Shown here in pieces: positions 15,975-35,781 of a stretch of DNA of 35,781 bases; within the stretch, counting starts at the first letter, position 1, and each line of letters starts with the position of its first letter. Origin of the DNA: Xanthomonas sp. GTDB taxonomy: Bacteria > Pseudomonadota > Gammaproteobacteria > Xanthomonadales > SZUA-5. Under the pieces are notes generated by a model. The model did no database searches and had not been told where the DNA came from. It worked only from the letters and a program-made list of their open reading frames with translations. The stretch covers positions 1 through 35,781 of the forward strand of contig JAIMJQ010000005.1 of the NCBI GenBank assembly GCA_020693165.1, in the 5' to 3' direction. The position numbers and the translations under genes are program-made.

Positions 15975-16026
15975 GCACCGGGGCACCGGGGCACCGGGGC
16001 ATGGAGCACGGAGCACGGAGCACGGG
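15975..16026. repeat. Short tandem array: GCACCGGG octamers then GCACGGA heptamers
   Basis: Three GCACCGGG units are followed by GCATGGA, GCACGGA, GCACGGA and GCACGGG. The reverse complement of the last units belongs to the CCCCGTG/CTCCGTG heptamer family seen at 41-61 and in mutS. Together with 16286-16342 it brackets the palindrome array in inverted orientation. Confidence 0.8.
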
Positions 16027-16050
16027 AAGAGCCCCGGCGACGCTGCCCTT

Positions 16051-16212
16051 GTGGGTCCAGACTTGTCTGGACGCTGTTGATCCTGCTGTTGCCTTTGTGG
16101 GTCCAGACTTGTCTGGACGCTGTTGATCCTGCTGTTGCCCTTGTGGGTCCAGACTTGTCTGGACGCTGTTGATCCTGCTGTTGCCCTTGTGGGTCCAGAC
16201 TTGTCTGGACGC
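16051..16212. repeat. 46-bp tandem array carrying an 18-bp perfect palindrome
   Basis: The palindrome GTCCAGACTTGTCTGGAC begins at 16055, 16101, 16147 and 16193, an exact 46-bp period. The 28 bp between palindromes are almost identical in each unit (a single C/T difference in the CCTTT/CCCTT stretch). This is a tandem amplification of one unit. The identical spacers exclude a CRISPR array. Confidence 0.92.
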
Positions 16213-16236
16213 TTCTGGCTGCCATCCAGGGACAGC

Positions 16237-16254
16237 GTCCAGACAAGTCTGGAC
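16237..16254. repeat. Inverted copy of the 18-bp palindrome
   Basis: The opposite orientation (AA centre) is followed by CCACCA, as at 1-25. It closes the array and lies 26 bp after its last unit. Confidence 0.9.
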
Positions 16255-16285
16255 CCACCATAAGCTCGCAATCTGCGAGTCTTTG

Positions 16286-16342
16286 CCACGCACCATGCAC
16301 CACGCACCACGCACCACGCACCACGCACCATGCACCATGCGC
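16286..16342. repeat. Heptanucleotide array CACCACG/CACCATG
   Basis: About eight 7-bp units alternate between CACGCAC and CATGCAC phases. In reverse complement the units read GCRTGGT, matching the style of the GCAYGGA units at 15998-16026, so the two arrays form an inverted pair around the palindrome array. Confidence 0.8.
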
Positions 16343-32153: not shown

Positions 32154-32243
32154 CAGGGCTCGTGAAAGCGACTGAGGCGATCAGTCTACCCGACACTTCG
32201 GCTGCCGTTGGGGCCGCGCTCGGACGACCCTCGGCAAGTTCTT

Positions 32244-32362
32244 CACGCGGAGGCGCGGAGGCGCGCAGAGGAGCAACGAACTGGTGGGTAGCTGCGCCTG
32301 TGTTTCTCGGCCCGCTATCCAACCCTCCTTCGCTCTTCTCCGCGTCTCCGCGCCCCCGCGTG
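32244..32362. repeat. Long imperfect inverted repeat (CGCGGAG type)
   Basis: The left arm (32244-32274) and right arm (32331-32362) pair over about 30 bp with a few mismatches around a 56-bp centre. The arms carry GCGGAG and CGCAGAGGAGC blocks shared with 2942-2967 and 3061-3102. This occupies most of the 277-bp gap 32154-32430; nothing else is recognised there. Confidence 0.65.
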
Positions 32363-32430
32363 AGATAGCTCCCGGGACTCTCAGCGCCAACTTTCCGTGC
32401 GTTCTTCGCGGACAAGGCACTTCATCCAGA

Positions 32431-32841: not shown

Positions 32842-32941
32842 CGTCGAATTCCCGAGTAAAACCACGAGGCTAGCCGATGGCGGTTGAGTGAAGCGTCACG
32901 AAGCGTCAGAAGCTTTCTTGCGTCTGCACCAGCATTTGTGG

Positions 32942-33002
32942 GCCCAGACTTGTCTGGACGCTCCCCGGTTGGATGCTGAAAAGCGTCCAGACAAGTCTGG
33001 AC
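32942..33002. repeat. Inverted pair of the 18-bp palindrome
   Basis: The left copy (32942-32959, TT centre) has one change in its first arm (GCCCAGAC). The right copy (32985-33002, AA centre) is perfect and is followed by CCACA. The spacer is 25 bp. The pair lies between the cytochrome gene and the end of mutS. Confidence 0.9.
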
Positions 33003-33027
33003 CCACAAACGCATGGGACTTTGGCGC

Positions 33028-35781
33028 TTACACCAGCGCCTTCAACCGATACAACAGATCCAGCGCCTGGCGCGGCGTCAGCGCATCCGGATCGACGTCG
33101 CGCAGCGCATCCAGTGCGGGGGAGGGCGCCGCAAACAGGTCGAATTGTGCCGGCTTCGCTTCCTGCCTTTCGCCGTGTCGGGTCCCGGGTCCCGGGTCCC
33201 GGGACCCGTCATCCGCCCGTGCCCCGTGCCCCATGCCCCGTGCCCCGTCTTCCAGTCCCTTCAGCACCGCCTCCGCACGCTTCAGCACGCGCCCCGGCAA
33301 CCCGGCCAACGCCGCCACCTGCAGCCCGAAGCTGCGATTGGCCGGCCCGGGTTTGACCGCGTGCAGGAACACCAGCGCATGCGCATGTTCGACTGCATCC
33401 AGGTGCACATTGGCGACGCCCTCGCATTCGTCGGCGAGTTCGGTCAGCTCGAAGTAATGGGTGGCGAACAGGGTGTAGGCGCGATTGCGCTCGGCCAGTT
33501 CGATGGCGCAGGCGCGGGCGATGGCGAGGCCGTCGTAAGTGCTGGTGCCGCGCCCGATCTCGTCCATCAGCACCAGGCTGCGATCGGTCGCGTTGTGCAG
33601 GATGCGTGCGGTCTCGGCCATCTCGACCATGAAGGTCGACTGACCGCGGGCGAGGTCGTCGCCGGCGCCGATGCGGGTGAAGATGCGGTCGATCGGGCCG
33701 ATCGTCGCCGACCTCGCCGGCACTGCGCTGCCGATATGCGCGAGCAGCACGATCAACGCATTCTGGCGCATGTAGGTGCTCTTGCCGCCCATGTTCGGGC
33801 CGGTGATCACCAGCATGCGACGATCGCCATGCAGGTCCAGGTCGTTCGGTTCAAATGGCTCGCGGCGGACGACCTCGACCACCGGATGGCGTCCCGCCTC
33901 GATCTTGAGCACGCGTTCATCGGTCAATGTCGGTCGCGCCCAGTTCCAGCGCTCGGCGCCATCAGCCAGCGCCGCAATCACATCCAGGTGGGCGAGGGCG
34001 TCGGAGGCCGCGCGCAGGGTGTCGAGGTGCCGCTGCAGTTCGGCGATCAGTTCGTCGTAGAGACCGCGCTCGCGCATCAGCGCGCGCTCGCGACTGCCGA
34101 GTACCTTGTCCTCGTAGAGCTTCAATTCCTCGGTGATGTAGCGCTCGGCGCCCTTGAGCGTCTGCCGCCGCGACCAGCGCGCCGGCACGCGTTCCAGATG
34201 CGAGCGGGTCACTTCGAGGTAGTAGCCGTGCACCTTGTTGTAGGCGACGCGCAGATTGGCGATGCCGGTGGCCTCGCGCTCGCGGCGTTCGAGGTCGACC
34301 AGGAACTCGTCGGCGCCGGCCGACAGCAGTCGCAGTTCATCGAGTTCAGCATCGAATCCGGTGGCGATCACGCCGCCATCGCGCATGAATATCGGTGGCT
34401 CGGCGACCAGCGCGCGCAGCAGCAGCGCATGGGTATCCTCCATGCCACGTAGCGCCTGCGCCCATTCGATCAGCGCACTCGGCGTGCCTTGCTCGGCGAT
34501 CGACGCGAGCGCGGGGCAGATTGCGAGCGCATCGCGCAGGCCCGACAGATCGCGCGGCCGCGCCGAGCCGAGCGCCAGCCGCCCGAGCATGCGTTCGACG
34601 TCGCCAAGTGCCTGCAGCGCGGTGCGCAGCGGCTCGATCAGCGCCAGGTTGCGCACTGATTCGATCGCATCCTGACGCACGCGCAGCGCCGCGTGGTCGC
34701 GCAATGGACGCGCCAGCCAGCGCCTGAGGAGGCGCGCACCCATCGGCGTCAGACAGCGGTCGAGGATGCCGATCAGCGTGTGCTCGCGACGGCCGGAGGC
34801 ATGTTCCTCGATCTCGAGGTGACGGCGTGTGGCCGCATCCAGGTGCAGCGAGTCCTCTCCTTGTTCCACTGACAGGCCCGCCAGGCGCGGTAGCGCCGCC
34901 TTCTGCGTTTCGCGCACGTAGTGCAGCAGCGCCCCGGCGGCACCGAGCGCCGCATCGAGGTGGTCGCAACCGTAGCCGGAGAGGTCGCGCACCGCGAACT
35001 GCTGCGTCAGCGCGCGGCGTCCGGCATCGCTGTCGAAGTGCCACGGCGCCAGGCGCCTGACCAGGCCGGCTTCGACGCCATCAAGATTCAGCAGGTCCTC
35101 GGGAATCAGCGTCTCGGCGGGGGCCAGTCGCGCCATCTCGGCCGGCAGTGCCTCGGCATCGATCTCGCTGACGCGGATGCGGCCGGAGCCGAGGTCGAGC
35201 CAGGCGAGGCCGAGGCGAGGGCCGGAAGTTGCAACGGCGGGGCAGGGGGCAGGGAGCAGGGGACGGGGTCCTTCGCCCTGACTGGATGCAGTCGCAAGAT
35301 TCGCACTGAGTTGAGGCGACCGGCGAGCCGCAAGATGTTCCCCCTGCCCCCTGCCCGCTGCCGCCGCTCGTTCGTGCCTCACCGCCACCGCCAGCAACAG
35401 ATTGTCCCGCCGCTGGTCCAGCAGCGCATCGTCGACCACCGTGCCGGGTGTGACAATGCGCGTAATGCGGCGCTCGACCAGGCCCTTGGCTTCACGCGGA
35501 TCGCCGATCTGTTCAGCGATCGCTACCGCTTCGCCGAGGCGGATCAGCTTGGCCAGATAGCCATCCAGCGCATGCACCGGTATGCCCGCCATCGGAATCG
35601 GCGCGCCTGCCGATTGGCCGCGTTGGGTCAGCGTGATGTCGAGCAGGCTCGCCGCGCGCCGCGCGTCGTTGTAGAACACCTCATAGAAGTCGCCCATGCG
35701 GAACAGCAGCAGCAGATCCGGCTGCTCGGCCTTGAGCGCCAGGTACTGGCGCATCAGTGGGGTGTGGTCGGCAATGACGCT
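33028..35781 (-). CDS. mutS: DNA mismatch repair protein MutS (5' end outside window)
   Basis: At least 917 aa are visible; the frame is open to the right edge as [14 protein letters not shown], so the true start lies a few codons beyond 35781 and the ATG at 35754 is internal. Hallmarks are the mismatch-reading FYE ([10 protein letters not shown]), Walker [22 protein letters not shown], and at the C-terminus a beta-clamp-type motif QFDLF followed by the tetramerisation helix [17 protein letters not shown]. The protein is longer than usual (about 855 aa) because of two extra segments encoded by heptanucleotide repeats. One lies at the N-domain/connector boundary (35239-35366) and one in the linker before the clamp motif (33180-33250). 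Confidence 0.95.
33180..33250. repeat. Heptanucleotide clusters inside mutS (linker)
   Basis: GGGTCCC x3 plus inverted GGGACCC (33180-33207) are followed by GTGCCCC-type units (GTGCCCC, GTGCCCC, ATGCCCC, GTGCCCC; about 33220-33247). They encode the extra peptide [20 protein letters not shown]… about 50-75 codons before the MutS stop. Adding or removing one 7-bp unit would shift the frame. Confidence 0.85.
35239..35366. repeat. Inverted heptanucleotide arrays inside mutS (N-terminal part)
   Basis: GGGGCAG, GGGGCAG, GGAGCAG and GGGACGG (35239-35266) face CCCCCTG, CCCCCTG and CCCGCTG (35340-35360) across about 73 bp. In reverse complement both are CAGGGGG units, so they form an inverted pair. 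The encoded segment ([13 protein letters not shown] … PLLPAPCP) is absent from standard MutS and separates LLLAVA from [12 protein letters not shown]. Confidence 0.85.

Follow-up and report, generated by a model that had tools for sequence, protein, structure and literature searches.

We consider it about 75% probable that the heptamer insert in the connector domain of this mutS (site 1) is a member of a dispersed family of inverted arrays, carried in frame as a tolerated passenger, that the arrays in the linker before the β-clamp motif (site 2) are older and decaying, and that neither is a phase switch. Elements of the same layout lie in frame in other genes, including the gene for an indispensable tRNA synthetase, and inverted arrays recur at orthologous places in other species of the genus, generally with a different unit on both arms.

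The window analyzed here, a stretch of 35,781 nucleotides, belongs to the source genome (G000), which was compared with two genomes of the same genus (G001 and G002) and with relatives outside the genus, among them G004, G005, and G007. The genus genomes are fragmented drafts, at least one of them metagenome assembled (completeness of G000, 77%; contamination of G001, 7%), and each species was represented by one genome in all comparisons.

Repeat sites within mutS

The mutS coding sequence (33028 to 35781, minus strand) runs for 917 codons to the window edge, beyond which its 5' end lies, and contains five MutS Pfam domains and no internal stop. Tandem Repeats Finder places four period-7 arrays inside it, at 33179 to 33208, 33216 to 33248, 35239 to 35262, and 35340 to 35362. 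The two heptamer clusters that the preliminary description had assigned to the mutS frame are real and lie in frame within this minus-strand ORF, and the reading frame is open through both inserts in all three genus species.

Two short arrays in inverted orientation make up site 1 (35239 to 35362, minus strand), which lies within a lineage-specific segment that spans 35212 to 35382 and encodes amino acids 134 to 190. Read in the mutS sense, a G-rich left arm of about 3.3 GGGGCAG units (GGCAGCGGGCAGGGGGCAGGGGG, 35340 to 35362) is followed by a 78-bp spacer (35262 to 35339) with an open frame and no detectable relative among the sampled spacers and then by a C-rich right arm of about three CTGCCCC units (35239 to 35261), the reverse complement of the left. 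The segment corresponds to 6 amino acids in G005 and to a 5-residue turn in Escherichia coli MutS; with its flanks, site 1 accounts for 51 amino acids more than are found in G005 MutS. In the HMMER alignment to E. coli MutS (6i5f), query residues 132 and 189 correspond to residues 136 and 142, which places site 1 at the turn between two connector-domain strands. AlphaFold2, run with 28 aligned sequences, gives pLDDT values below 50 over residues 138 to 145 and 147 to 186, between strands 128 to 134 and 189 to 196, and the insert is thus predicted to be a flexible, disordered loop in place of a short connector-domain turn.

Among 29 relatives, site 1 is filled in G001, with a G000-like architecture, and in G002, with a short lone GGGGCAC array that has no inverted partner. 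The element is absent from G004, G005, G007, and all remaining relatives aligned, which have a short turn instead, so that alignment confirms the lineage specificity expected of this insertion, found only in the three genus members searched. The arms have about 3.3 to 3.7 units in both G000 and G001, although the two genes are only 64% identical at 4-fold sites. Between G000 and G001, the spacers cannot be aligned (local score of 13 against a null mean of 14.7), a result to be read with the caution that at 64% identity a neutral spacer is itself hard to align.

It is very unlikely that the loop has been adopted for a function, such as contact with MutL, the clamp, or DNA, or that the mRNA hairpin tunes the MutS level. 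The location in the connector domain, the conservation of the arms but not of the spacer, and the very stable RNA hairpin (-84.3 kcal/mol for positions 35225 to 35368, with a z score of -5.9) would suit such a role, but like elements occur in unrelated genes, the loop is predicted to be disordered, and its spacer-encoded sequence is not conserved, with most of the loop missing from G002.

Site 2 lies in the linker that follows the ATPase domain of MutS and consists of array A (33216 to 33248, minus strand), with 4.7 GGGGCAC units and one mismatch, and array B (33179 to 33208, minus strand), with 4.3 units, first GGGTCCC and then GGGACCC. Directly after it comes QFDLFA (33130 to 33147, minus strand; amino acids 879 to 884), a β-clamp-binding-like motif in which Q879, L882, and F883 are conserved. 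The linker measures 41 amino acids in G000, 31 in G001, 35 in G002, 30 in G005 (without arrays), and 21 in G004 and G007; degenerate GGGGCAC units remain at this site in G002 (four) and G001 (three). The AlphaFold2 model, with pLDDT below 50 over residues 849 to 884, points to a flexible addition that lengthens an already variable linker. In G005, a nonrepeat linker reaches a similar length at this place.

A dispersed family of inverted heptamer arrays

Heptamer families related to those in mutS also occur elsewhere in the genome, both inside and between genes, and the earlier suggestion that a dispersed element is involved is upheld. Within the window, arrays outside mutS comprise a CCCCGTG array of 3.1 units (41 to 62), a GGAGCAC-like array in an intergenic repeat cluster (15999 to 16025), and an intergenic CCACGCA/CCATGCA array of 7.4 units (16286 to 16340). 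A census was taken of 1.39 Mb (599 kb of G000, 400 kb of G001, and 389 kb of G002), in which all of the sampled stretches of G001, many of G002, and a few of G000 were picked to include known hits, so that the densities are upper estimates. Period-7 arrays numbered 37 in G000, 74 in G001, and 25 in G002, with no more than 8 at any of periods 5, 6, 8, 9, and 10. Chance and generic slippage at any period were ruled out as sources because period 7 dominates (37 arrays versus 0 to 8 in the 599 kb of G000).

The same 1.39 Mb contains 51 inverted pairs with spacers of 20 to 200 bp, mostly 70 to 92 bp in G000 and 38 to 44 bp or longer in G001. Arm order, as read from the census rows, is fixed in all 51 pairs, with the G-rich (or purine/G-T-rich) arm on the left and the C-rich arm on the right. 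Units in the genus genomes include GGGGCAG, GGGGCAC, GGGGCTG, GGGACCC, GGGAATC, GGAAAAA, and GGTTGTT. Four G-tracts per array is the commonest number in G000 (15 of 47 arrays) and G002 (14 of 30) and ranks second in G001 (17 of 87, after five G-tracts with 19). Exact copies of GGGCAGGGG-N60-90-CCCCTGCCC were counted 12 times in G000, 13 times in G001, 5 times in G002, and 15 times in G005; outside the family only 4 of 290 genomes (299 were searched in all) have a copy, and that of G287 is a chance match of the pattern to a different element. This genome, from another family of the order, holds several copies of an inverted element that starts GGGGGGATTCGCTTTTGC and has GCTTTG repeats (L166 and L173).

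Terminal inverted repeats, many dispersed copies, and presence or absence at orthologous sites, by which MITEs and Rickettsia palindromic elements are recognized, are all found in this family. No clear target-site duplication was seen at the elements examined, and at the G002 empty site of one intergenic element the flanks show no more than a weak and imperfect match of ATGA type. In G001, the spacers of some short-spacer elements match one another; the mutS spacers match none above the 99% level of the null. The absence of detectable homology among the spacers of long-spacer elements, unlike the body of a classical MITE, counts against our preferred explanation, as do the lack of a clear target duplication and the failure to find a mobilizing enzyme in the searches described next.

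Several sources for the elements were considered and rejected. A reverse-transcriptase or telomerase-like origin was entertained because of the array orientation and was discarded on the finding that RVT_1 is detected in neither G000 (77% complete) nor G002. REP/RAYT mobilization was discarded since no Y1 transposase was found in G002 (99% complete), and no reverse transcriptase or Y1 transposase is common to all of the element-holding genomes searched. Capture of host DNA as a spacer was likewise rejected: the mutS insert matched other loci mainly through its arms, and the best full-length match (71%, to another G000 element) was not significant over the spacer alone. There was no Rfam match within the window.

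Other repeats were noted in the same genomes. Heptamer hairpins of G001 are nested or doubled in tandem at L211 (14616 to 14904) and L209 (8651 to 8846), with AAGAGC/GCTCTT-like motifs between the layers, and GGGGCAG elements are often flanked by GAAAAGC...GCTTTTC, a bidirectional-terminator-like arrangement. Inverted pairs of 8- or 9-bp arrays (ACGCAAAGG, ACGCAGAGA, and GAGGGCAC) with the layout of the heptamer elements occur at L228 (12794 to 12954), L220 (2025 to 2138), L314, L315, and window positions 32243 to 32363; at some sites, one species has such a pair where another has a heptamer element. Directly downstream of mutS (window positions 32932 to 33012) lies another kind of dispersed palindrome, GTGGGTCCAGACTTGTCTGGACGCT and its reverse complement, with 31-nucleotide arms 19 nucleotides apart. 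It also forms a tandem array (46 bp, 3.7 copies), 20 nucleotides beyond which lies an inverted copy, and repeats of this type are located at 16044 to 16258 of the window and at L196 (10093 to 10376), L201 (11187 to 11399), and L214 (17547 to 17742).

Elements inside other genes and the question of a mutator switch

An element of the kind found at mutS site 1 lies in frame in valS of G000, a genome in which no second full-length ValRS was found. The valS genes of G001 and G002 carry elements at identical codons, with GGGACCC and GGGGCTG units, respectively. Each of the three ORFs is full length and encodes the HIGH and KMSKS motifs, and no element was found in valS of the relatives G003, G004, G006, G007, and G008. 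Upstream of the element, the G001 ValRS (L240) has a further repeat-free insertion of about 46 amino acids that is absent from G000, G002, and G007. An in-frame element is also present in glgX of G000 and missing from glgX of relatives, and the polyunsaturated-fatty-acid synthase genes of G002 contain several. In one stretch of these synthase genes (L236, 18199 to 19213), GGGGCAG elements lie between acyl-carrier-protein repeats and have apparently been multiplied together with the carrier domains.

The preliminary description had proposed a reversible mutator, in which 7-bp slippage within mutS changes the reading frame so that mismatch repair, or the clamp and tetramer tail alone, is switched off and on. 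The consequence was drawn correctly, in that a one-unit change at site 1 is predicted to truncate MutS at about 222 to 235 amino acids, and a change at site 2 to scramble the C-terminal tail only. Arrays of 7 bp, including one with the unit CCGGGTC, a rotation of the site 2 GGGTCCC unit, serve as typing VNTR loci in Xanthomonas euvesicatoria, where they were picked for between-strain variation and have reported allele ranges down to 2 to 4 units (PMC8002079). The tracts in mutS are shorter: the longest perfect ones are 2.4 and 2.3 units at site 1 and 2.4 and 3.6 units at site 2 (the latter in array B), and not the long, uninterrupted tracts that distinguish phase-variable contingency loci. Unit number at site 1 is about equal in G000 and G001 despite their synonymous-site divergence, and, as noted above, both frames are open in every one of the three species. 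The off state of valS should be lethal, and the occurrence of a similar element in this indispensable tRNA synthetase gene indicates that such elements are tolerated and not maintained by selection for switching. We therefore regard a reversible mutator as most unlikely. Because Xanthomonas heptamer arrays vary between strains, rare slippage at a low rate may nevertheless occur at the mutS tracts.

Conservation of sites and change of unit between species

Nine G000 elements, three of them coding, were compared at orthologous places. An inverted array was present at seven of nine such places in G001 and at five of eight in G002, against a background of 15.3% (G001) and 8.2% (G002) of gene 3' windows with an inverted array. 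The corresponding binomial probabilities, calculated by hand, are about 5e-5 and 2e-4. They serve as indications only, since gene ends that lack intergenic space dilute the background and the sites compared include the three coding ones. One intergenic element site is empty in G002. Of the 12 comparisons in which both species have an array, 11 show different units, changed on both arms together. At two sites, the G000 unit is 7 bp long and its counterparts in G001 and G002 measure about 9 bp. The sole comparison in which the unit is preserved is that of mutS between G000 and G001.

These comparisons would describe elements that occupy fixed sites within and between genes across species while the unit of both arms is rewritten together (GGGGCAG, GGGGCTG, GGGACCC, GTGAGTA, and even 9-mers), the spacer diverges freely, and the loops in MutS and ValRS are translated, a reading that we hold tentatively, at somewhat less than even odds. 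Rather than one ancestral element with a changed unit, different element families may have inserted independently at the same permissive places in each species, which we regard as plausible although on the doubtful side. The frequent difference in unit, the two sites with 9-bp units, and the unalignable mutS spacers of G000 and G001 are what independent insertion would lead one to expect; the high level of sharing over background, the valS junctions at identical codons, the GAGAGC...GCTCCTGCTC flanks common to valS of G000 and G002, and the mutS 3' flank, of about equal length from element to conserved core in G000 and G001, are more readily accounted for by an element inherited in place.

Comparison with known repeat systems

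Rehm et al. (2015) described GGGAATC heptamer repeats in Xanthomonas and GGGGA(C/T)T repeats in Nostoc; the Xanthomonas heptamers often form convergent inverted pairs (70 cases in Xcc and 75 in Xac) and lie inside genes in 7 to 11% of cases (PMC4692102). Comparing Xcc with Xac, that study reports that 83% of sites retain a G-rich repeat in an unchanged gene context. The present family shares with these the dispersed, tandem G-rich 7-bp units with typically about four G-tracts, the frequent convergent inverted pairs (all 51 here), and the location of a minority within genes; after the same study, the arms may be ascribed G-quadruplex potential. The GGGNATC type of unit is not found in mutS, which has GGGGCAG, GGGGCAC, and GGGACCC, although GGGAATC is present elsewhere in G000. 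In contrast to the Xanthomonas heptamers, many unit families coexist here in one genome, in-frame copies lie in conserved core genes including valS and mutS, and orthologous sites in different species have different units, on both arms alike.

Rickettsia palindromic elements and other in-frame MITEs are inverted-repeat elements of about 100 to 150 bp that lie in frame in unrelated protein genes (PMC10969869), as do the elements described here. The latter differ in that their arms are tandem heptamers, the spacers of the long elements share no detectable homology, and neither a conserved spacer-encoded peptide nor a recognizable target duplication was seen. Genic tandem repeats of Borgs, whose unit lengths are divisible by three, add disordered protein segments without breaking the frame (PMC9879509). 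Disordered segments are likewise added to an intact frame here, but the unit is 7 bp, and divisibility by three holds only for the insert as a whole.

Possible mechanism and implications

According to the explanation that we favor, the element would consist of a tandem array of G-rich heptamers (about 3.4 units and four G-tracts), a spacer usually of 40 to 155 bp, and the same heptamers in reverse complement, and would have spread by some copying process. It would have settled at site 1, a permissive hairpin turn of MutS, before the three sampled genus species diverged; there it would be translated in frame as a flexible, functionally near-neutral loop and kept because the protein suffers little from it. 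The arrays of site 2 would be an older, decaying pair in a linker that is disordered anyway.

The likeness of the two arms could be kept by template switching between hairpin arms together with slippage within arms, by repeated reinsertion at the same sites, or by both. Template switching homogenizes inverted-repeat arms in other systems (PMC8604942 and PMC8794818). Here, arm pairing would let one arm serve as the template for the other, and slippage would homogenize the units within an arm. Arm correction alone does not fit the change of unit length from 7 to 9 bp at two sites, where replacement of the whole would be needed.

Heptamer repeats in a repair gene are, by themselves, no evidence for contingency. 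The account of a mutator switch would give way to one of hairpin repeat elements that essential protein genes tolerate and whose two arms change together while their sites stay fixed, and this raises the general and testable question of how inverted repeats keep their arms alike during sequence turnover.
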